DNA from: Sphaerisporangium krabiense
GTDB lineage: Bacteria; Actinomycetota; Actinomycetes; Streptosporangiales; Streptosporangiaceae
Reading direction: 5' to 3'
Length of the DNA stretch: 64,000 nt
NCBI RefSeq assembly: GCF_014200435.1
Contig: NZ_JACHBR010000001.1
Coordinates: 5,398,001-5,462,000, forward strand
Position numbers and translations under genes: made by a program
In this document: positions 12,127 to 20,459 of the stretch, piece by piece
Position numbering within the stretch: the first letter of the stretch is position 1
Layout of the letters: each line of letters opens with the position of its first letter
The notes under the pieces: generated by a model
What the model was told of the DNA's origin: nothing
The model's database searches: none
Seen by the model: the letters and a program-made list of their open reading frames with translations, nothing else

Positions 12127-12176
12127 CCCCGGACCCGGAAGGCCCGGCCCCGCGGCGATGCCGGGCAGGGGGTCAG
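12123..12176. terminator. Bidirectional terminator-like hairpin
   Basis: CTGACCCC (12123-12130) pairs with GGGGTCAG (12169-12176), and CCGG/GGCC tracts inside can extend the stem. Each arm carries the stop codon of one of the two convergent genes. There is no U-tract, as is common in high-GC actinomycetes. Confidence 0.55.
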
Positions 12177-14413
12177 GACAGGGCGATGTCGTGCGGGCGG
12201 ATCGGGACGCGGGGGAGGGGCAGGCCCGTGGCGGCGCGGACGGCGGCGACGATGGCCGGGGTCGAGGACAGGGTGGGCGGCTCGCCGGCCCCGCGCAGGC
12301 CGTACGGCGCGTGGGGGTCGGGGTTCTCCAGGATCGACAGGCGCATGGGCGGCATGTCCAGGATGGTGGGGATCAGGTAGTCGGTGAAGGACGGGTTGAG
12401 CACCCGCCCGTCGCGGACCTGGATCTCCTCCATGAGCGCGAGCCCGAGCCCCTGGGCCGTCCCGCCGTGGATCTGCCCCTCCAGCGCCGACCGGTTGAGG
12501 ATCTTGCCCACGTCCTGGACGGCGGCCAGCTCCACCACCTTGACCAGCCCCAGCTCCACGTCGACGTCGACCACGGCGCGGTGCGCGCACAGGGCGAGCT
12601 GGGTGTGGGAGTCGCCCCGCCCGGTGACCGGGTCCATGGGGAAGGTGGGCCGGTGGCGGTACTCGCGGGTCTCCTCGATGGGCCCGTACCGCGCGACCAG
12701 CTCCTCCGCCGTGAGCTCGGGACGGCCGGCGCGCAGCGCGTCCAGGCGTTCGCGCACCGCCTCGCACGCGGCCTTGACCGCCCCGCCGGTCACGTACGAC
12801 TGCCGGGAGGCCGAGGTGGAGCCCGCCGAGCCGACCGTGGTGTCGGCCGGGGCGACGGTCACCCGCGCGACGCCGAGCTCGGTGCGGGCGATCTGCGCCT
12901 GCAGCGTCACGAGTCCCTGCCCGACCTCCGCCGCCGCAGTGTGCACATGCACGTGCAGCGAGTCGCCGGCCAGCTCCAGCCGCACCCGGGCGGTCGAGTA
13001 ATCGTCGAAGCCCTCGGAGAAGCAGATGTTCTTGATGCCCACCCCGTACCCGACGCCCCGGCGCACCCCCTCGCCGTGCGTCGTCTGGGCCACCCCGCCG
13101 GGCAGCGCCCGCAGGTCCGCGGGCCGGTCTCCGGCGGGCAGCGGCATCGCGGCCAGCTCGCGCAGCATGGCCGCCAGCGGCGCGGGGGAGTCGATGACCT
13201 GGCCGGTCGCCAGCCTCGACCCCTGGGAGACCGCGTTGCGCACCCGGATCTCCACCGGGTCCAGGCCGCACGCCTCGGCGAGCCTGTCCATCTGCGACTC
13301 GTAGGCGTAGCACGCCTGCACCGCGCCGAACCCGCGCATCGCCCCGCACGGAGGGTTGTTGGTGTAGGCGCCGTAGGCGTCGATCTCGATGTTGGGCACC
13401 TCGTACGGGCCCACGCCGAGCGAGGCGGCGTTGCCGACGACGGCGGGGGAGGAGGAGCGGTACGCGCCCCCGTCCAGGACGATCTCGGCTCTGACGTGCA
13501 CCAGCCTGCCGTCGCGGGTGGCGCCGTGCTCGTAGCGCAGGCGCGCGGGGTGCCGGTGGACGTGCCCGAAGAACGACTCCTCACGGCCGTACACCATCTT
13601 GACCGGCCGGCCGGTGCGCAGGGCCAGCATGGCGGCGTGGACCTGCATGGACAGGTCCTCGCGGGCGCCGAACGCGCCGCCCACCCCGGCGAGCGCCAGC
13701 CGCACCTTCTCCTTGGGCAGCCCCAGGCACGGCGCGATCTGGTCCTGGTCGACGTGCAGCCACTGCGTCGCGACGTAGAGGTCCACCCCGCCGTCCTCGG
13801 CCGGCACGGCGAGCCCGGACTCGGGGCCGAGGAACGCCTGGTCCTGCATGCCGACCTCGTACTCGCCGGTCACCACGACCTCGGCGGCGCCGGGCGTCCC
13901 CGGTTCCGGCACGCGGCCGACCCGCACCGGCTGGTGGCGCACGACGTTGCCGCCCGGCCCCACCACCGGGCAGCCGGGGTCGAACAGCGCGCGCCGCGCG
14001 TCGGTGACGGCCTCGCGCGGCTCGTACTCCACACGGACGGCCGCCGCCGCGCGCCGGGCGGTCTCCGGATGGTCGGCGGCGACGATCACGATGGGTTCGC
14101 CCTGGTGGCGGACCTGGTCGATGGCCAGCACGGGCTGGTCCCTGTGCTCCAGGCCGTAGAACCTGTGCCCGGGGACGTCCTCGTGGGTGAGCACCGCGCG
14201 CACGCCGGGCATGGCCAGCGCGGGGCCGATGTCGACCGCGCGTATCCACGCCGAGGGGTGCGGGGAGCGCAGCGTCGCGCCCCAGAGCATGTCCGCGAGG
14301 TAGAGGTCGGACGCGTAGGCGAACTCGCCGGTGACCTTGAGCGCGCCGTCCGGGCGGGGCGCGCTCGTCCCGATGCCCTGGTCCTGGCCGCGGCCGCTGG
14401 CGGTGTGCGTCAC
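12173..14413 (-). CDS. Xanthine dehydrogenase family, molybdopterin-binding subunit
   Basis: 746 residues. Domains in order are the ald_Xan_dh N-terminal part (VTGEFAYASDLYLADMLWGATLRSPHPSAWI) and the molybdopterin part with GVGGAFGARED, PPCGAMRGFGAVQ, AAAEVGQGLVTLQAQIA and, near the end, YGLRGAGEPP whose Glu is the catalytic residue of the family. It should hydroxylate a purine or other N-heterocycle at a Mo centre. The FAD and 2Fe-2S subunits that normally sit next to it are absent on both sides. The GTG at 14413 is the only usable start before an upstream stop. It is divergent from the PucR regulator, with an inverted repeat between them, so it is probably controlled by it. Confidence 0.92.
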   Translation of the reverse strand: MTHTASGRGQDQGIGTSAPRPDGALKVTGEFAYASDLYLADMLWGATLRSPHPSAWIRAVDIGPALAMPGVRAVLTHEDVPGHRFYGLEHRDQPVLAIDQVRHQGEPIVIVAADHPETARRAAAAVRVEYEPREAVTDARRALFDPGCPVVGPGGNVVRHQPVRVGRVPEPGTPGAAEVVVTGEYEVGMQDQAFLGPESGLAVPAEDGGVDLYVATQWLHVDQDQIAPCLGLPKEKVRLALAGVGGAFGAREDLSMQVHAAMLALRTGRPVKMVYGREESFFGHVHRHPARLRYEHGATRDGRLVHVRAEIVLDGGAYRSSSPAVVGNAASLGVGPYEVPNIEIDAYGAYTNNPPCGAMRGFGAVQACYAYESQMDRLAEACGLDPVEIRVRNAVSQGSRLATGQVIDSPAPLAAMLRELAAMPLPAGDRPADLRALPGGVAQTTHGEGVRRGVGYGVGIKNICFSEGFDDYSTARVRLELAGDSLHVHVHTAAAEVGQGLVTLQAQIARTELGVARVTVAPADTTVGSAGSTSASRQSYVTGGAVKAACEAVRERLDALRAGRPELTAEELVARYGPIEETREYRHRPTFPMDPVTGRGDSHTQLALCAHRAVVDVDVELGLVKVVELAAVQDVGKILNRSALEGQIHGGTAQGLGLALMEEIQVRDGRVLNPSFTDYLIPTILDMPPMRLSILENPDPHAPYGLRGAGEPPTLSSTPAIVAAVRAATGLPLPRVPIRPHDIALS

Positions 14414-14528: not shown

Positions 14529-16214
14529 ATGCGGATACGTGAGCTGATCGCCATGGGGGAGCTGGGGCTGACCCTGCTGTCGGATCCCGCCCATCTGGAC
14601 AGGCCGTTCTCCGGAGTGCACATCACCGACCTGCCCGACCCCGGCAGGTACCTGTCCGGTGGCGAACTGGTGCTCACCGGGCTCATGTGGCGGCGCGAGC
14701 CCGGCGACTCGCGCCGCTTCGTCGAGACCCTCGCCGCCGCCGGGGTCGCCGCGCTCGGCGCCGGGCGTGCGCTGCTCGGCGAGGTGCCGGGGGACCTGGC
14801 CGAGGCGTGCCGCGACCACGACCTTCCGCTGCTCGACGTGCCGGAGGAGACCTCGTTCCGCACGCTGGGGGAGAAGGTGGAGGCGCGCCTCGCCGACCCG
14901 CGCGGCGCGCTCGGCCTGCACCGCCGCATCGTCGCCGCCGTCGCCGAGGGCGGCGGCCTGGAGGAGCTGTGCGCGCTGACCCGCCGTGAGCTGGGCGTCG
15001 AGGGCGCGGTCGTGTCGGCGACCGGCACGGTGGTGGCCGGCGACCTGGACGGCGGGCTCGCGGCGCGGCTGGCCCGCGAGTTCCTCGCCGCGCCCCGGCT
15101 GCCGCACGTGGCCCGCACCCCGGGCGGGCCGTACACGCTGTTCGCGGTGGACCGCGCGCACCGGGCGGCGGGCTGGGCGCTGGTGCTCGGGGCCGACCTG
15201 CTGGACCGGGCGGACGTAGGCTTCGAACTGGCGGCCTGCGCGGCGCTCGCGCGGGGCCGCGCCGAGGAGGGGCGACGGGTGGAACGGCGGCTGGCGGGGC
15301 AGCTCGTCGCGCTCGCCCGCTCCGCGGCGCCCGACGCCGCCGAACTGGCCGCGCGCCTGCGCACCTGTGGCATCGGCGCCGCGGAGCCGTACGTCATGGT
15401 CGCCGCGACGGCGGCGCTCCCCGGCGCGGCGGACGGGCCGGGCCCGGCCGAGCTGGGCGGGCGGGTGGTGGAGGAGTCGCTGGCCCGCCGCGTGGTGGCC
15501 GCCGTGCAGGGCGGGGCCAGGGTGGGGACCATGGCAGGGGACACAGGGGTGGACCTGGCGGGGGCCGTCGCGATCGTTCCGCTGCGGGCGTTCTCCGACT
15601 CCGGGGCGCGGGAGGACGAACCAAGGAAGGCACGAGAGAAGAAAGAAAAAGCGGCGGACAGGCCTGGCGCAGAGGTGCCCGTGCGACTTACCGTGCAATT
15701 GCAAGACCAATCGCATGTGCACCGTAGTGTGCACGCGGTTTTGGGCCTGCTGAGGGACGGAGTGGCGACGCTCCAGGCCGGTGACCGGCAGGTGCGGGTG
15801 TCAGTCGGCGTGAGCGCCGTCCTGACCGGGCCCGGAGCCGTCCGCGGGGGCGCGGAAGAGGCGGCTCACGCGAGGCGTCTTGCGGAGGCGCGAGGTGGAG
15901 GGGTGGTGACCAGCGACGAGATCTACACCTGTGATCTTCTGCTGGCCACCGTGCCCGACGAGGTGCGGCGATCGTTCGCGCAGCGGATCTTGGATCCGCT
16001 TTTCGAGTACGACCGGCGTCACCGGTCGGAGCTGGTCCGTACCCTTGCGGAGTTTCTCGACTGCGCCGGCTCCTGGAACGGGTGCGCGGCGCGGTTGCAC
16101 GTGCATGTCAACACGGTGCGCTACCGCATTCAGCGGGTCGAGGAACTCACAGGACGGAACCTGTCCTCAATGGCGGACAGGGTTGACCTGTTTCTCGCGC
16201 TACGTGCCTGTTGA
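14529..16214 (+). CDS. PucR-family transcriptional regulator
   Basis: 561 residues. The N-terminal PucR purine-catabolism domain (about 1-125, RIRELIAMGELGLTLLSDPAHLDRP...LSGGELVLTGLMW) is followed by a middle region, a CdaR GGDEF-like part (SVGVSAVLTGPGAVRGGAEEAAHARRLAE) and a C-terminal PucR HTH (FLDCAGSWNGCAARLHVHVNTVRYRIQRVEELTGRNL). Family members sense purine-catabolic compounds and control genes such as xanthine dehydrogenase, matching the divergent neighbour. Residues about 361-404 (15610-15740) are odd: Lys/Glu/Gln-rich and coded by clearly AT-richer DNA than the rest. The -10 just before ATG 14529 suggests a leaderless transcript. Its stop lies 8 bases from the stop of the small ORF on the other strand. 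Confidence 0.92.
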   Translation: MRIRELIAMGELGLTLLSDPAHLDRPFSGVHITDLPDPGRYLSGGELVLTGLMWRREPGDSRRFVETLAAAGVAALGAGRALLGEVPGDLAEACRDHDLPLLDVPEETSFRTLGEKVEARLADPRGALGLHRRIVAAVAEGGGLEELCALTRRELGVEGAVVSATGTVVAGDLDGGLAARLAREFLAAPRLPHVARTPGGPYTLFAVDRAHRAAGWALVLGADLLDRADVGFELAACAALARGRAEEGRRVERRLAGQLVALARSAAPDAAELAARLRTCGIGAAEPYVMVAATAALPGAADGPGPAELGGRVVEESLARRVVAAVQGGARVGTMAGDTGVDLAGAVAIVPLRAFSDSGAREDEPRKAREKKEKAADRPGAEVPVRLTVQLQDQSHVHRSVHAVLGLLRDGVATLQAGDRQVRVSVGVSAVLTGPGAVRGGAEEAAHARRLAEARGGGVVTSDEIYTCDLLLATVPDEVRRSFAQRILDPLFEYDRRHRSELVRTLAEFLDCAGSWNGCAARLHVHVNTVRYRIQRVEELTGRNLSSMADRVDLFLALRAC

Positions 16215-16222
16215 GTCACAAA

Positions 16223-16357
16223 TCAGCAGCAAGGGAAGTCGTTTGCCATGAGATGGGAAGACGTGGAAGCTTCGGCAGTCATAGCATTGGCTCCGACGCC
16301 CAGAAGGGCGAGGAAGCATACGCTCAGGGCCGAGAGGGCGAGACGGCGACGACGCAT
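16223..16357 (-). CDS. Small secreted peptide precursor (44 residues), candidate signal peptide of the adjacent regulator
   Basis: The ORF starts with ATG at 16357, six bases after GGGAG (16364-16368), and ends at TGA 16223-16225. The peptide begins MRRRRLALSALSVCFLALLG, a positively charged n-region and hydrophobic core, followed by an Ala-x-Ala cleavage-type site (GVGANAM or AEAS), and ends in HLMANDFPCC. It is divergent from the XRE-TPR regulator, with 54 bases between the two starts, and convergent with pucR. Small exported pro-peptides next to a TPR regulator are the hallmark of RRNPP-type quorum sensing, known mainly in Firmicutes; that link is inference. Third-position GC is lower than in neighbouring genes. 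A TTGACC-N17-GAAGAT promoter can be read on the minus strand, with its -35 inside the regulator's first codons. Confidence 0.55.
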   Translation of the reverse strand: MRRRRLALSALSVCFLALLGVGANAMTAEASTSSHLMANDFPCC

Positions 16358-16423
16358 GGAGAACTCCCGTTCGTGGCAGTTGTCGGGGCTTTACATCTTC
16401 AAGGAGTGCCAGTGACTGGTCAA
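16358..16423. promoter_or_regulatory. Short bidirectional promoter region between peptide ORF and XRE-TPR gene
   Basis: On the minus strand TTGACC (16418-16423) and GAAGAT, 17 bases apart, make a fair promoter for the peptide ORF; its -35 falls within codons 3-4 of the regulator gene. On the plus strand AAGGAG (16401-16406) is the regulator's ribosome site. The overlap means that a regulator binding here would affect both genes. Confidence 0.4.
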
Positions 16424-17707
16424 GATCTCATAGGCCAGCGAATCAAGACGATTCGTCGCCAGCGCGGTCTTTCGCAAGCACAACTGGCGCACCCTGAACT
16501 CTCAGACAGTTATGTGTCACTCATTGAGAGTGGCAAGCGTACGCCGACGGCGGCGGTTCTGGAACTGCTGGCGGCCAAGCTCGATTGCTCCCTGACGTAT
16601 CTGATCAACGGCGTCACCGCCGAGCAGATGCAGGAGCTGGAGCTCGGCCTGCGGTACGCCAGCCTCGCCCTCAACAACGGCGAGGTCACCGAGGCGCGGC
16701 GGCGCTACGCCGAGCTGCTGGAGGACGGCAGCCTCGCCGGCCTCATCTCCCTGCGCCAGGAGGCCGAGTACGGCTACGCCCTGGCCAGCGAGGCGTGCGG
16801 GGACCTCGACGGGGCGATCTCCGTGCTGTGCCGGCTGCGCGAGCCCGGTAGCGACCCGCTGCCTCCGGACCGTTCCATCGCCGTCGCCATCGCGCTCTCC
16901 CGCTGCTACCGCGAGTCGGGCGACCTCGCCGCCGCCGTGCGCGTCGGCGAGGAGGCGATCATCGGCCCGGCCCGCCCGGCCTGGAACGACGACCTCGTCG
17001 AGCTCGGGGCCACGCTGCTCTCCGCCTACGAGCTGCGCAACGACATGCTCAGGGCCGAGCAGTTCGCCGCCGAACTGCTGTCGGCCGCCGAGATGCTCGG
17101 CACCCCCCGTGCCACCGTCGCCGCCTGCTGGAACGCCGCCATCGTCGCCGAGCGCACCGGCCGCATCACCGAGGCCCTCGCCTTCGGCGAACGCGCCCTG
17201 GCCATCCAGTCCGAGAACGGCGCCGAGCCGCGCAACCTCGCCCGGCTGCGGCTGGCCGTCGCCGTCCTGCGGTTCCGGGCCAGCCCGGCGGAGGCCGAGG
17301 CGTGCCGCGACCTGTTCCTGCGCGGCGAGCGCGAGCTGACCGAGAGCTCGGGCAGCATCGCCGACCGCGCCCGCTGCGCCGTCGAGCTGGCCAAGGTCGA
17401 GATGGCGCTCCACAACCCCGACAAGGCCGCCGGGTACGCCCGCAGGGCCAACGAGCTGGCCCAGGAGCGCCCCCGTTCCGTGCGCGCGGACGCCCACCTG
17501 GTGCTCGGCAACGCCCTGCTCTCGCTCGGGCGCACGGAGGAGGCCGCCGCCGAGCTCGTCGCCGCCGAGGACCTGCTGTCCACCTCGCCGGTGACGCGCA
17601 AGACGGCCGAGGGCTGGCTGACCGCCGCGACCGCCCTGGAGCGGATGGAGGACGGCGAGGCCAGTGTGGCCGCCTACCAGCAGGCCCTGGCCTGCGTCGG
17701 CCTGTGA
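16412..17707 (+). CDS. XRE-family HTH regulator with C-terminal TPR domain
   Basis: 431 residues. The HTH_3 domain occupies about residues 5-65 (IGQRIKTIRRQRGLSQAQLA, then SDSYVSLIESGKRTPTAAVLELLAAKL). The rest (75-430) is a helical array of TPR-like repeats, such as YASLALNNGEVTEARRRYAELL and LAFGERALAIQSENGAEPRN. Start GTG 16412 is favoured by AAGGAG five bases upstream; GTG 16406 is in frame but overlaps the ribosome site. The architecture equals that of Rgg/PlcR/NprR-type peptide receptors, where the TPR groove binds a re-imported peptide, but many actinobacterial XRE-TPR proteins have no known ligand. The divergent small ORF is the obvious ligand candidate. A strong terminator follows the gene. 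Confidence 0.9.
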   Translation: MTGQDLIGQRIKTIRRQRGLSQAQLAHPELSDSYVSLIESGKRTPTAAVLELLAAKLDCSLTYLINGVTAEQMQELELGLRYASLALNNGEVTEARRRYAELLEDGSLAGLISLRQEAEYGYALASEACGDLDGAISVLCRLREPGSDPLPPDRSIAVAIALSRCYRESGDLAAAVRVGEEAIIGPARPAWNDDLVELGATLLSAYELRNDMLRAEQFAAELLSAAEMLGTPRATVAACWNAAIVAERTGRITEALAFGERALAIQSENGAEPRNLARLRLAVAVLRFRASPAEAEACRDLFLRGERELTESSGSIADRARCAVELAKVEMALHNPDKAAGYARRANELAQERPRSVRADAHLVLGNALLSLGRTEEAAAELVAAEDLLSTSPVTRKTAEGWLTAATALERMEDGEASVAAYQQALACVGL

Positions 17708-17736
17708 TCCACCGGGCTCTCTGAGCACGTCCTTCA

Positions 17737-17768
17737 CGTCCTCGCGGGGCGCCGTCCCCGCGAGGACG
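17737..17768 (+). terminator. Strong intrinsic-type hairpin after the XRE-TPR gene
   Basis: A 13-base perfect stem, CGTCCTCGCGGGG (17737-17749) with CCCCGCGAGGACG (17756-17768), closes a six-base loop and is followed three bases later by CTTTT. It separates the regulator from the copC operon. Confidence 0.8.
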
Positions 17769-17796
17769 CCGCTTTTCCGGGGCCGACCGGGCCGTG

Positions 17797-17815
17797 CTCC
17801 CCCACTAGGGGTGAG
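17797..17815. promoter_or_regulatory. 19-base dyad upstream of copC, possible copper-responsive operator
   Basis: CTCCCCCACTAGGGGTGAG has CTCnCCC/GGGnGAG arms around ACTA. CsoR sites in actinobacteria are C-tract/G-tract dyads of this sort, and the gene 45 bases downstream is copC; the assignment is inference. The -10 of copC is TAGCCT at 17845-17850. Confidence 0.4.
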
Positions 17816-17859
17816 TTGTGGTAGGGACCGACCTGGTGCCTGGATAGCCTTAGGGCATT

Positions 17860-18453
17860 ATGAGGACTTCTCCGCTCGCCGCCGCGCTCGCGCTCCTCGC
17901 CGCCCTCGTGCTCGGCACCGCCCTGGCCTCGCCGGCGCTGGCGCACACGGCCCTGAAGAGCAGCGACCCCAAGAAGGGCTCCACGGTCGAGACCCTGGAG
18001 GGGGTGACGCTCACCTTCACCGAGAGCGTGAAGTTCCCCGTCGTGCTGGTCCGCGACGCCGACGGCCGCGCCCACCAGGACGGCAAGGCGAAGCTCGACG
18101 GCGCGACGGTCACGCAGAAGGTCTCCGGCGCGCTGCCCTCCGGGAAGTACGTCATCGCCTGGCGCGTGGTCTCGGTCGACGGCCACCCCATCGAGGGGGA
18201 GATCCCCTTCACCGTGAAGGCCCCCGCCGCCTCCCCGACGCCCACGACCTCGGAGTCCTCCACGGCGCCGGCCTCGCCCGAGCAGCCCGCGCCCGTGACG
18301 AGCTCGCCGCCGCCCTTCACCCCGACCCCGGTGGCCGACCAGGCCGCGCAGGACGACAAGGGCTCCGGCGTCCCCGCCTGGCTGTGGATCGCCGTCTTCG
18401 GCGTCGCCGGCGTCGGCATCGGCACGGCGATCAGCCTGCGGAAGAAGTCGTGA
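17860..18453 (+). CDS. copC: CopC-family copper resistance protein
   Basis: 197 residues. A signal peptide (MRTSPLAAALALLAALVLGT...PALA) is cut before HTALKSSDPKKGSTV, placing the copper-ligand His at the mature N terminus. The CopC domain ends with the second His motif WRVVSVDGHPIEGEIPFTV. A Thr/Pro/Ser linker and a C-terminal membrane helix (AWLWIAVFGVAGVGIGTAISL) anchor it outside the membrane. It binds copper for delivery or import together with the CopD-like protein coded next, whose start overlaps its stop by four bases. TAGCCT nine bases before ATG 17860 implies little or no leader. Confidence 0.93.
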   Translation: MRTSPLAAALALLAALVLGTALASPALAHTALKSSDPKKGSTVETLEGVTLTFTESVKFPVVLVRDADGRAHQDGKAKLDGATVTQKVSGALPSGKYVIAWRVVSVDGHPIEGEIPFTVKAPAASPTPTTSESSTAPASPEQPAPVTSSPPPFTPTPVADQAAQDDKGSGVPAWLWIAVFGVAGVGIGTAISLRKKS

Positions 18454-20459
18454 GCAGAGCGGTCCGCCTCGCCGTCGCAGGGGTGTGCGCGGCGCTCGCG
18501 GGCCTGGTCGCCGCCATGGTCGCCGGCGGTGCGGCCACCCCCCGCATCATCCCCGGCCTGCCCGACGAGGGCACCCTCACCCGCTGGGCGCTGCCCGTCT
18601 CCAAGCTGACCATGGACGTCGCCGGCGTGCTGACCGTCGGCCTGCTGCTCACCGCCACCGTCTTCCTGCCCAGCGACAAGGGGCTGCTGAGCAAGCCCGC
18701 CCAGGTCTACGTGCGGGCCGCGGCGTGGACGGCGCTGCTGTGGGCGCTCGCCGCCGCCTCGTCGCTGGTGTTCAGCCTGTCGGAGACCCTCGGCATCCCC
18801 GTCGCCGAGGCGCTCGGCGGCAACGAGCTCACCAGCTACGCCAGCCAGGTCCCACAGGGCATCTCGCTCACGCTCGTGGTGCTGTTCGGCACCGCCATCG
18901 CGTTGTTCTCGCGCGGCGCGATCACCACGGGCGCCTCGGGCGGCCTGCTGGTGCTGGCGCTGGCCACGCTCATGCCCCCCGCGCTCACCGGCCACTCCTC
19001 CTCCGCGCCCAACCACAGCCTCGCCACGACCGGCGTCGCCCTGCACCTGGCGGTGCTGTCGCTGTGGGTGGGCGGGCTGCTGTTGCTGTGCGCCCACGCC
19101 CTGCGCGGCGCGCCGCACCTGGACCTGGCCGCCGGCCGCTTCTCGCGCATGGCGCTGTGGTGCTTCATCGGCACCGGCCTTTCCGGCCTGTTCAGCGCGC
19201 TGGCCCGCCTGACCTCCGTCGCGGAGCTGTTCACCACCTCCTACGGGCTGATCCTCGTGGCCAAGGCCGTCGCCTTCACCGTCCTCGGGGTGCTCGGATG
19301 GTGGCACCGCCGCCGCACGCTGCCCGAGCTGTCCGCGGGCAGGCCCGGCGCCTTCGTCCGGCTCGCGGGGGCCGAGGGCCTGATCATGCTGCTGGCCGTG
19401 GGCCTGGCGGTCGCCCTCTCGCGCACCGCGCCGCCGCCGCTGCTCGACCAGCCTCTGGACCGGGCGTTCGAGCTGCTCGGCTATGTGATGCCGCCGCCGG
19501 TCTCGGTGGCCAATCTCGTGACCCTGTGGTGGTTCGACCTGTTCTTCGCGGTGATCGCCGTCGTGCTGGCGGGGTTGTACGGCGCGGGGGTGGCCCGGCT
19601 GGCCCGCCGCGGCGACCGCTGGCCGGTGGGCCGCACGATCAGCTGGGGCGTGGGCGTGCTCCTGCTGGTGCTGGCCACGCAGAGCGGCGTCGCCCGGTAC
19701 GCGCCGGTGCTGTTCAGCGTGCACATGGCCGAGCACATGGTCCTCTCCATGCTGGTGCCGATCTTCCTGGTGCTCGGAGCCCCGGTGACGCTGGCGCTGC
19801 GCGCGCTGAAGCCCGCCGCGCGGCGCGGCGACCGCGGCCCGCGTGAGTGGATCATGGCGATCCTCCACAGCAGGATCACCAAGGTCGTCACCCATCCGGC
19901 CGTCGCCACGATCCTCTTCGTGACCTCCACCTACATGCTGTACTTCACGCCGCTGTTCACCTCGGCCATGGAGGAGCACCTCGGCCACATCGCGATGACG
20001 CTGCACTTCCTGCTCAGCGGCTGCCTGTTCTTCTGGGTGATCATCGGCGTGGACCCCGCGCCCACCCGGCTGCCCTACGTCGGGCGGCTGCTGCTGCTGT
20101 TCGTGACCATGCCGTTCCACGCGTTCTTCGGCATCGCGCTGATGAACATGGGCACCGTGATCGCCGCCGAGTGGTACGACCAGCTCGGCCGCACCTGGGG
20201 GACGTCGGGGCTGACCGACCAGAGCACGGGCGGCGGCATCGCCTGGGCCTTCGGCGAGATCCCCACGCTGATCGTCCTCATCGCGCTGGCCTTCCAGTGG
20301 TACCGGGACGAGGACCGCACGGCCCGGCGCGCCGACCGCCGCGCCGACGCGCGCGCCGCGAAGGTGGGCGGCACCGGCGACGCCGCGTTGGACGCCTATA
20401 ACGCCTACCTCGCCAAGCTCAATAAAATGGACAGTCTGGACAAGACTGGCAAAGAATGA
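18450..20459 (+). CDS. CopD copper transport domain fused to CtaG cytochrome c oxidase assembly domain
   Basis: 669 residues and about 14 membrane helices. The first half (about 1-330) is CopD-like (TLTRWALPVSKLTMDVAGVLTVGLLL, TGHSSSAPNHSLATTGVALHLAVLSLWVGGL). The second half (about 345-640) is caa3_CtaG-like (FSVHMAEHMVLSMLVPIFLVLGAPVTLALR, HLGHIAMTLHFLLSGCLFFW, MPFHAFFGIALMNMG). His and Met residues in these helices are likely copper ligands. The GTG start at 18450 overlaps the copC stop (GTGA). With CopC it should move copper across the membrane, probably for cytochrome oxidase. This fusion is common in actinobacteria. Confidence 0.93.
   Translation: MSRAVRLAVAGVCAALAGLVAAMVAGGAATPRIIPGLPDEGTLTRWALPVSKLTMDVAGVLTVGLLLTATVFLPSDKGLLSKPAQVYVRAAAWTALLWALAAASSLVFSLSETLGIPVAEALGGNELTSYASQVPQGISLTLVVLFGTAIALFSRGAITTGASGGLLVLALATLMPPALTGHSSSAPNHSLATTGVALHLAVLSLWVGGLLLLCAHALRGAPHLDLAAGRFSRMALWCFIGTGLSGLFSALARLTSVAELFTTSYGLILVAKAVAFTVLGVLGWWHRRRTLPELSAGRPGAFVRLAGAEGLIMLLAVGLAVALSRTAPPPLLDQPLDRAFELLGYVMPPPVSVANLVTLWWFDLFFAVIAVVLAGLYGAGVARLARRGDRWPVGRTISWGVGVLLLVLATQSGVARYAPVLFSVHMAEHMVLSMLVPIFLVLGAPVTLALRALKPAARRGDRGPREWIMAILHSRITKVVTHPAVATILFVTSTYMLYFTPLFTSAMEEHLGHIAMTLHFLLSGCLFFWVIIGVDPAPTRLPYVGRLLLLFVTMPFHAFFGIALMNMGTVIAAEWYDQLGRTWGTSGLTDQSTGGGIAWAFGEIPTLIVLIALAFQWYRDEDRTARRADRRADARAAKVGGTGDAALDAYNAYLAKLNKMDSLDKTGKE

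Follow-up and report, generated by a model that had tools for sequence, protein, structure and literature searches.

Does an actinomycete use a peptide signal and an intracellular receptor of the kind known as RRNPP (Rap/Rgg/NprR/PlcR/PrgX) from Firmicutes? The question is raised by a locus in a 64 000-nucleotide stretch of the Sphaerisporangium krabiense genome (assembly GCF_014200435.1, contig NZ_JACHBR010000001.1, positions 5,398,001 to 5,462,000; the window). Here a short open reading frame (ORF; 16223–16357, minus strand) for a putative exported propeptide lies divergent to the gene (16412–17707, plus strand) of a regulator with an XRE-type helix-turn-helix (HTH) and a TPR region. An earlier sequence-only reading had proposed a signalling pair of this type. 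The two genes are considered, with a probability of roughly 75 %, to be a cognate peptide-signal/receptor module that would work like RRNPP quorum sensing, because the small ORF is kept in 80 of 80 related loci, the pair duplicates as a unit, and precursors of sister systems in Streptomyces carry a short motif, some of them in repeats. RRNPP peptide signalling has been described mainly from Firmicutes, and density signalling in Streptomyces and its kin has been described as based on small molecules. If the reading is true, a synthetic short peptide would be a simple handle on gene clusters of antibiotic-producing actinomycetes that are silent in the laboratory, and signals of this kind would gain, in the Cys-Cys end, a chemical feature that is new for them.

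Peptide gene and putative propeptide

Translation of the minus-strand ORF (16357–16223) gave MRRRRLALSALSVCFLALLGVGANAMTAEASTSSHLMANDFPCC, a product of 44 residues with a basic n-region (MRRRR), a hydrophobic core, an Ala-x-Ala type c-region, a variable tail and Cys-Cys (CC) at the C-terminus; the ATG is preceded by GGGAG as ribosome site. Peptides were called signal-like by rule (basic n-region and hydrophobic core), and the Ala-x-Ala site was judged by eye. The putative secreted tail (about STSSHLMANDFPCC; with the stop codon 16223–16267, minus strand; predicted cleavage site) is the most variable part except for the CC, according to C-terminal position counts and the ratio of nonsynonymous to synonymous differences (pN/pS). 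The window peptide, the sole peptide run against Pfam, gave no match there, and seven peptides of this kind gave nothing or only matches below the cut-off in NCBIfam.

XRE–TPR regulator and its relatives

The 431-residue regulator, the putative peptide receptor, was matched by Pfam to HTH_3 (E 3.3e-11) and to TPR families. In its AlphaFold model (pLDDT 90.3) helical pairs follow the HTH. Among PDB sequences PlcR was the best natural match (2qfc, E 2.5e-14, residues 5–192), followed by NprR; a Foldseek search with the model ranked the PlcR–PapR7–DNA complex fourth, and Rap was also among the matches. Taken together, Pfam, AlphaFold and these matches describe a predicted cytosolic receptor with an XRE-type HTH and a TPR superhelix, as an RRNPP system has. 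A match of the TPR region to the NsdA family stayed below the cut-off (19.0 bits versus 75). Coordinates and Pfam also agree with the divergent arrangement and the 54 bases between the starts given by the sequence-only reading, and its Arg4 n-region, hydrophobic core and Ala-x-Ala type site of the 44-residue peptide were found again in the translation by rule or by eye.

The same 8.5-Mb genome encodes an XRE–TPR paralogue (33 % identical; contig C1, 2382454–2383737) that has kin in several relatives and no such peptide adjoining it. Paralogous and other XRE–TPR genes served as negative control: of 18 such loci (L031–L048; one is cut at a contig end, and L036 has no upstream part), none has on either side an ORF that is leader-like and carries CC close to its end. 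CC-ending frames do occur upstream in several of these loci, none of them leader-bearing, and the proposition that every XRE–TPR gene is accompanied by a peptide of this kind was rejected. A partial XRE–TPR relative (36 % identity) is encoded in MT836207.1, an unverified phage-collection entry derived from human faeces, in which a leader scan showed no peptide.

Conservation in Streptosporangiaceae

Named genomes were scanned with a receptor alignment, and the best 80 of 447 loci were kept, all from Streptosporangiaceae genera; at each locus the best-scoring short ORF was taken by script, CC raising the score. In all 80 a short ORF with a similar leader runs divergent to the receptor gene, at a distance of 50 to 63 bases from the point where the receptor match begins. 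By the rule-based leader test, a short propeptide with an export leader is thus encoded beside the receptor throughout, as expected of an RRNPP pair. The small ORF, with its GGGAG before the ATG, can thus be taken as genuine, as first proposed. Loss or frameshifting of the ORF in relatives, which the sequence-only reading had named as evidence against itself, did not appear: the frame is open and in place in 80/80, and its C-terminal piece is variable.

The C-terminal CC is found in 67 of the 80 loci, and all remaining tail positions vary. On the receptor tree the 13 loci without CC, from Streptosporangium, Planomonospora and Planobispora, fall into a single clade (support 100/100, one change); the named rows nearest to the window regulator on this tree are from Sphaerisporangium. 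Eleven of the 13 tails carry W-x-x-P near the end (GWNHPD, GWGYPD, GWGWPG, GPWNGPA), the other two being GPLNNAE and GPAPHAE. Helix A of TPR5 holds four of the 12 receptor sites that are most diagnostic of this clade and none in five other clades (post hoc comparison); for A helices generally, the enrichment of diagnostic sites was no higher than in other clades. Judged from the sequences, CC is dispensable in some lineages, since one clade dropped it and extensions after it occur.

Selection was estimated from 78 pairs of CC loci of equal length with a receptor identity of 72–98 %. The pN/pS was 0.60 for the leader, 1.00 for the ten codons before CC, 0.00 for CC (synonymous changes being present) and 0.29 for the receptor. 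This pattern, in which the leader is conserved, the tail free to change and the end fixed, would suit the precursor of a rapidly diversifying product. These data also bear on the idea that the small ORF is untranslated and that the conserved thing is a regulatory DNA or RNA element. The DNA near both starts is indeed partly conserved as DNA, but bases change while the frame, the hydrophobicity of the leader and CC persist, pN is zero at CC despite synonymous changes there, and relatives of the peptide are present in protein collections (several as hypothetical protein), which makes this explanation scarcely credible.

Duplication and co-variation of peptide and receptor

In two Spongiactinospora loci the peptide and receptor genes are tandem-duplicated as one unit. 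Between the copies the HTH is 95.7 and 97.1 % identical, compared with 83.5 and 73.3 % for the TPR part; the two tails are KDIFCC and DAPRCC in one locus, KDIACC and GEPLCC in the other. Because the HTH was kept while the TPR part and the tails diverged, these duplicates would suit signal–receptor pairs that share a DNA target and diverge in their ligand.

Tail distances were compared with receptor distances by partial Mantel tests (n=66 rows, after removal of identical receptors, rows without CC and rows without a CopD match). With CopD controlled, tail distance tracks TPR distance (partial r 0.18, p 0.0005); its relation to HTH distance is weaker (p 0.10), and that to CopD distance given TPR has p 0.06.

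Several results weigh against a cognate pair of RRNPP type. The last four tail positions are related to CopD distance as well (p 0.024), and leader distance likewise tracks TPR distance (0.27). Since the leader does so too, close linkage may explain part of the correlation between tail and TPR, and a plain claim of co-evolution between the two is weakened by this control. As to shared ancestry of the regulator with Rap, Rgg, NprR, PlcR and PrgX, the PlcR match in sequence (E 2.5e-14) stands against eukaryotic TPR proteins, which match the regulator structurally as well as or better than PlcR, NprR and Rap.

Distribution across actinobacterial families

When the receptor alignment was searched against genomes of the whole class, 81 of 394 matched, with 111 places in total; this set overlaps with the 80 Streptosporangiaceae loci, and the counts are not additive. 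Both flanks of 67 places were examined as far as contigs or stretches reached, the flank lengths being uneven among loci; the others were 21 lower-scoring second Streptosporangiaceae matches, five Jiangellaceae places, two contig-end fragments and 16 distant places (13 Streptomyces, three others), which were scanned apart. The peptide ends in CC at 46 of the 67, in CC plus one to five residues at four and in a tail of the non-CC clade at seven; no peptide was found at ten, two of them at contig ends. Automatic scoring, which wanted a ribosome site, had given 18 places as lacking CC. On rereading, two (G130, G100) have a CC peptide and six (G190, G403, G343, G015, G025, G095) have tails of the non-CC clade. 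At a further locus (L148) the row with CC plus extension is a chance ORF, and the true peptide ends in WGYPI.

Fifteen of the 16 Jiangellaceae loci have a CC peptide, and the remaining one is truncated by the end of its contig. CC peptides also adjoin XRE–TPR relatives in Nocardioides, in further families and on a Streptomyces plasmid, either upstream or downstream of the receptor gene. Because those found in Nocardioides (7/8) and in one other family (f16; 2/5) lie downstream in convergent orientation, adjacency of the two genes is evidently kept while their order changes.

A filter for leader and ribosome site returned 124 short ORFs from 1.18 Mb (the window, the 80 named and 20 distant loci). 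Of these signal-like ORFs, 84 have CC as their last residues and one has a single C; judged by coordinates, all 84 adjoin an XRE–TPR gene, against a local background of loci chosen for XRE–TPR genes. A profile of the peptide, the alignment of which shares some genomes with the 60 relatives searched, gave 18 matches at E < 1e-7, all adjoining the receptor. When the neighbouring proteins of the 20 distant loci and the window were clustered, the widest cluster besides the receptor comprised generic ABC-transporter ATPases (8 of 21 sets), and all others were present in at most four sets.

The two terminal cysteines, invariant beside a changing tail, would suit a site of modification. The product could on this account be a pheromone of the ribosomally synthesised and post-translationally modified peptide (RiPP) type, the CC or other end of which is modified enzymatically before sensing (disulfide ring, thioether, lipidation). 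The clustering, a search not aimed at RiPP enzymes, revealed no enzyme family common to the neighbours of the pair across families, and some lineages have short extensions after CC; the enzyme might also be encoded elsewhere in the genome. A modified pheromone is considered unlikely.

The RRNPP-like pair put forward by the sequence-only reading is supported by its conservation, its duplication and the Streptomyces motifs described below; that reading had missed the CC end, the other tails that replace it in one clade, and the spread past Streptosporangiales.

Sister systems in Streptomyces

Among more distant receptor loci (L238–L254), scanned together with three others, a leader-bearing short ORF was found near the receptor in 9/17. 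One of these receptors (L249) was traced in 150 Streptomyces genomes and matched in 28. A short ORF with the motif [IL][DEGS]WP lies within 1.2 kb upstream of the receptor in 21 of 30 Streptomyces loci, compared with one of the 80 Streptosporangiaceae control loci; at the extreme C-terminus the motif stands in 15/30 and 0/80, respectively. Control orders of the motif were found in 0, 3 and 0 of the 30 Streptomyces loci. Fourteen of the 21 motif ORFs have a leader by eye, seven have none, and in six (L249, L256, L260, L261, L267, L274) the motif is repeated two or three times. In Streptomyces sp. NBC_00158 a three-copy I[D/E/S]WP precursor, annotated at NCBI as hypothetical protein, adjoins a plasmid-borne receptor (L286), near a gene with an adenylation domain as in nonribosomal peptide synthetases (NRPS). 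On a Streptomyces goshikiensis plasmid a receptor relative is directly followed downstream by a precursor of the CC type ending in KDIPLCC (L285:4601–4816, annotated hypothetical protein), beyond which lies a gene for a BTAD-domain regulator. Since short motifs are repeated within a putative secreted precursor, the repeated-motif precursors point to a released peptide as their product.

The Streptomyces precursors also help in judging whether the peptide is rather a secreted effector, antimicrobial or redox-active through its Cys-Cys, the gene of which is only regulated by the XRE–TPR protein. An effector would agree with the presence of CC in 67/80 loci, with a leader of the kind typical for exported peptides and with a tail under relaxed or diversifying selection, as in some toxins. 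It sits badly with the clade that lost CC yet retains the leader and the place of the gene, and with a tail that tracks the TPR part (p 0.0005) and not clearly the HTH (p 0.10). Nor does it account for the short, partly repeated and Cys-free motifs of the Streptomyces precursors, or for neighbourhoods with no wide cluster besides the receptor except the generic ABC ATPases (8/21 sets, the rest ≤4). An effector is thus held to be quite improbable, and the peptide is preferably read as the cognate signal of the adjoining receptor.

Beyond this, it is about an even question whether Actinomycetota possess an old class of their own of intracellularly sensed peptide pheromones, with a Cys-Cys branch (possibly disulfide-closed or otherwise modified) and an IDWP branch in Streptomyces that is often multi-copy; some Streptomyces pairs, on plasmids near an NRPS or a BTAD (SARP-type) gene, may in that case switch on natural-product synthesis.

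Four Streptomyces receptor relatives (L240, L242, L245, L246) are accompanied by divergent short ORFs of secreted type with a common ANAGPA-type leader and variable tails without CC or IDWP. In one locus of another family (L252, f5) a receptor relative stands divergent to a putative secreted precursor that contains TGNWPDPM twice.

Proposed mechanism

The pair itself, its conservation and breadth, the evolution of the tail, the duplication of the module and the predicted fold of the receptor are read from sequence; export, processing, import, binding, operator, feedback and regulon are proposed as follows. The 44-residue propeptide would be exported through its putative leader, and a C-terminal piece of about 5–14 residues ending in -CC would be released. 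This piece would be taken back up, most likely via Opp/Dpp-type permeases; a search of the genome gave 21 SBP_bac_5 (Opp/Dpp-type) matches, which make re-import possible and say no more than that. The imported piece would then bind in the TPR groove and thereby alter how the XRE domain binds DNA. For the operator, the 54-base intergenic region shared by both genes is the most likely candidate, so the peptide gene is likely to be regulated by its own receptor. The quickly changing tail would provide lineage-specific signals, and CC may persist because it serves, as a fixed handle, the processing, modification, import, redox state or binding of the peptide.

Comparison with known systems

The PlcR–PapR and NprR–NprX systems of Bacillus likewise combine a cytosolic HTH–TPR regulator with an adjoining short gene for an exported propeptide, and the regulator matches theirs in sequence and fold. 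In PapR and NprX the signal is the C-terminal end of the propeptide. Unlike these systems, the present putative pair belongs to another phylum, has a Cys-Cys end and stands in divergent or convergent order. In anatomy it appears RRNPP-like, with signal ends that are unfamiliar from RRNPP. Rgg–SHP and ComRS together with the leaderless communication peptides of Streptococcus resemble it as compact modules of a short peptide and an XRE-type regulator; the Rgg–SHP/ComRS systems are, however, found in Firmicutes. The seven leaderless motif ORFs of Streptomyces recall leaderless communication peptides as presented in a section of PMC10518010. Tandemly duplicated RRNPPA propeptides of Bacillota, as far as they are outlined in part of PMC11343458, offer a parallel to the repeated signal units of the Streptomyces IDWP precursors; unlike them, CC precursors of the window type are single-copy.

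The gamma-butyrolactones of Streptomyces are also cell–cell signals of actinomycetes, but are small molecules made by enzymes; a passage of a 2026 review names them as Streptomyces signals (PMC13220807). RRNPP_detector was applied to Firmicutes and viruses, and actinobacterial signals are described as typically small molecules, in the relevant passages of PMC10075063. A search of the open-licence PMC literature, which leaves subscription papers and bioRxiv mostly uncovered, gave no description of an actinobacterial XRE–TPR/peptide pair among the matches listed.

Intergenic region and promoter

The ribosome sites of both genes lie in the 54-base region between the divergent starts (16358–16411), as does the likely −10 element of the peptide gene (CATCTT on the plus strand, 16394–16399); the region was examined in a MAFFT alignment of 21 orthologous regions. 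The candidate promoter of the peptide gene, on the minus strand, consists of TTGACC (16423–16418), a spacer of 18 nt and AAGATG (16399–16394), and its likely −35 element (16418–16423) thereby falls into codons 3–4 of the regulator gene. At regulator codons 2–4, Gln occurs in 55 of 81 rows and is encoded by CAA in 55/55, compared with 142/1404 for later Gln codons of the same genes. Forty-five of the 55 CAA rows have GTCAA (TTGAC on the other strand) and ten have CGCAA; the 26 rows without Gln at these codons are mostly from Nonomuraea. Because the early Gln codons are always CAA and mostly keep TTGAC, it is plausible that in most lineages, Nonomuraea excepted, the peptide gene has its −35 element within the regulator gene. 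The sequence-only reading had placed it there. The conservation of CAA and TTGAC speaks for this placement and a strict sigma-70 scan against it, as that scan returned no promoter in 16150–17900, the candidate included. A scan for T-run terminators was also empty.

An operator search with a conserved element, ACATCTTSAAGGRGT (≤2 mismatches), gave 68 matches in the genome versus 37 for the reversed pattern; the element overlaps the ribosome site, and the search was set aside as uninformative.

Neighbouring genes

The regulator gene is followed by a 12-bp hairpin (17738–17767, plus strand; RNA fold of 17708–17790, z −2.83; not flagged in the T-run terminator scan), which is possibly its transcript end. 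Because the hairpin stands before copC, its position suggests that copC is not part of the regulator's transcript. The copC and copD genes (17860–20459 in the window) follow the regulator in most Streptosporangiaceae loci, with copC matches in 78/80 and copD matches in 79/80.

This constancy would be expected if the CC tail were a metal ligand (copper or mercury) and the unit part of copper handling with copC/copD; a part of PMC13188914 considers SaoC, a protein with Cys-Sec/Cys-Cys at its C-terminus, as a possible metal-ligand protein, and this counts for the explanation. In loci of other families of up to 20 kb (L198–L214, L217), however, copC was found in 0/18 and copD as one weak partial match (L205, 34 %, E 1e-8), while both Streptosporangiaceae loci of that comparison set do have copC and copD. 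The two genes are moreover retained in the non-CC clade, and the hairpin separates the regulator from copC. A metal-ligand function is very unlikely on these grounds, and a copper-handling unit was rejected, as the pair and copC/copD do not stay together across lineages.

Within the window the pair stands between a gene for a PucR-type regulator (14529–16214), upstream, and copC, downstream. Near the PucR-type gene lies a large minus-strand ORF (12173–14413) that resembles a molybdenum hydroxylase/xanthine dehydrogenase subunit.
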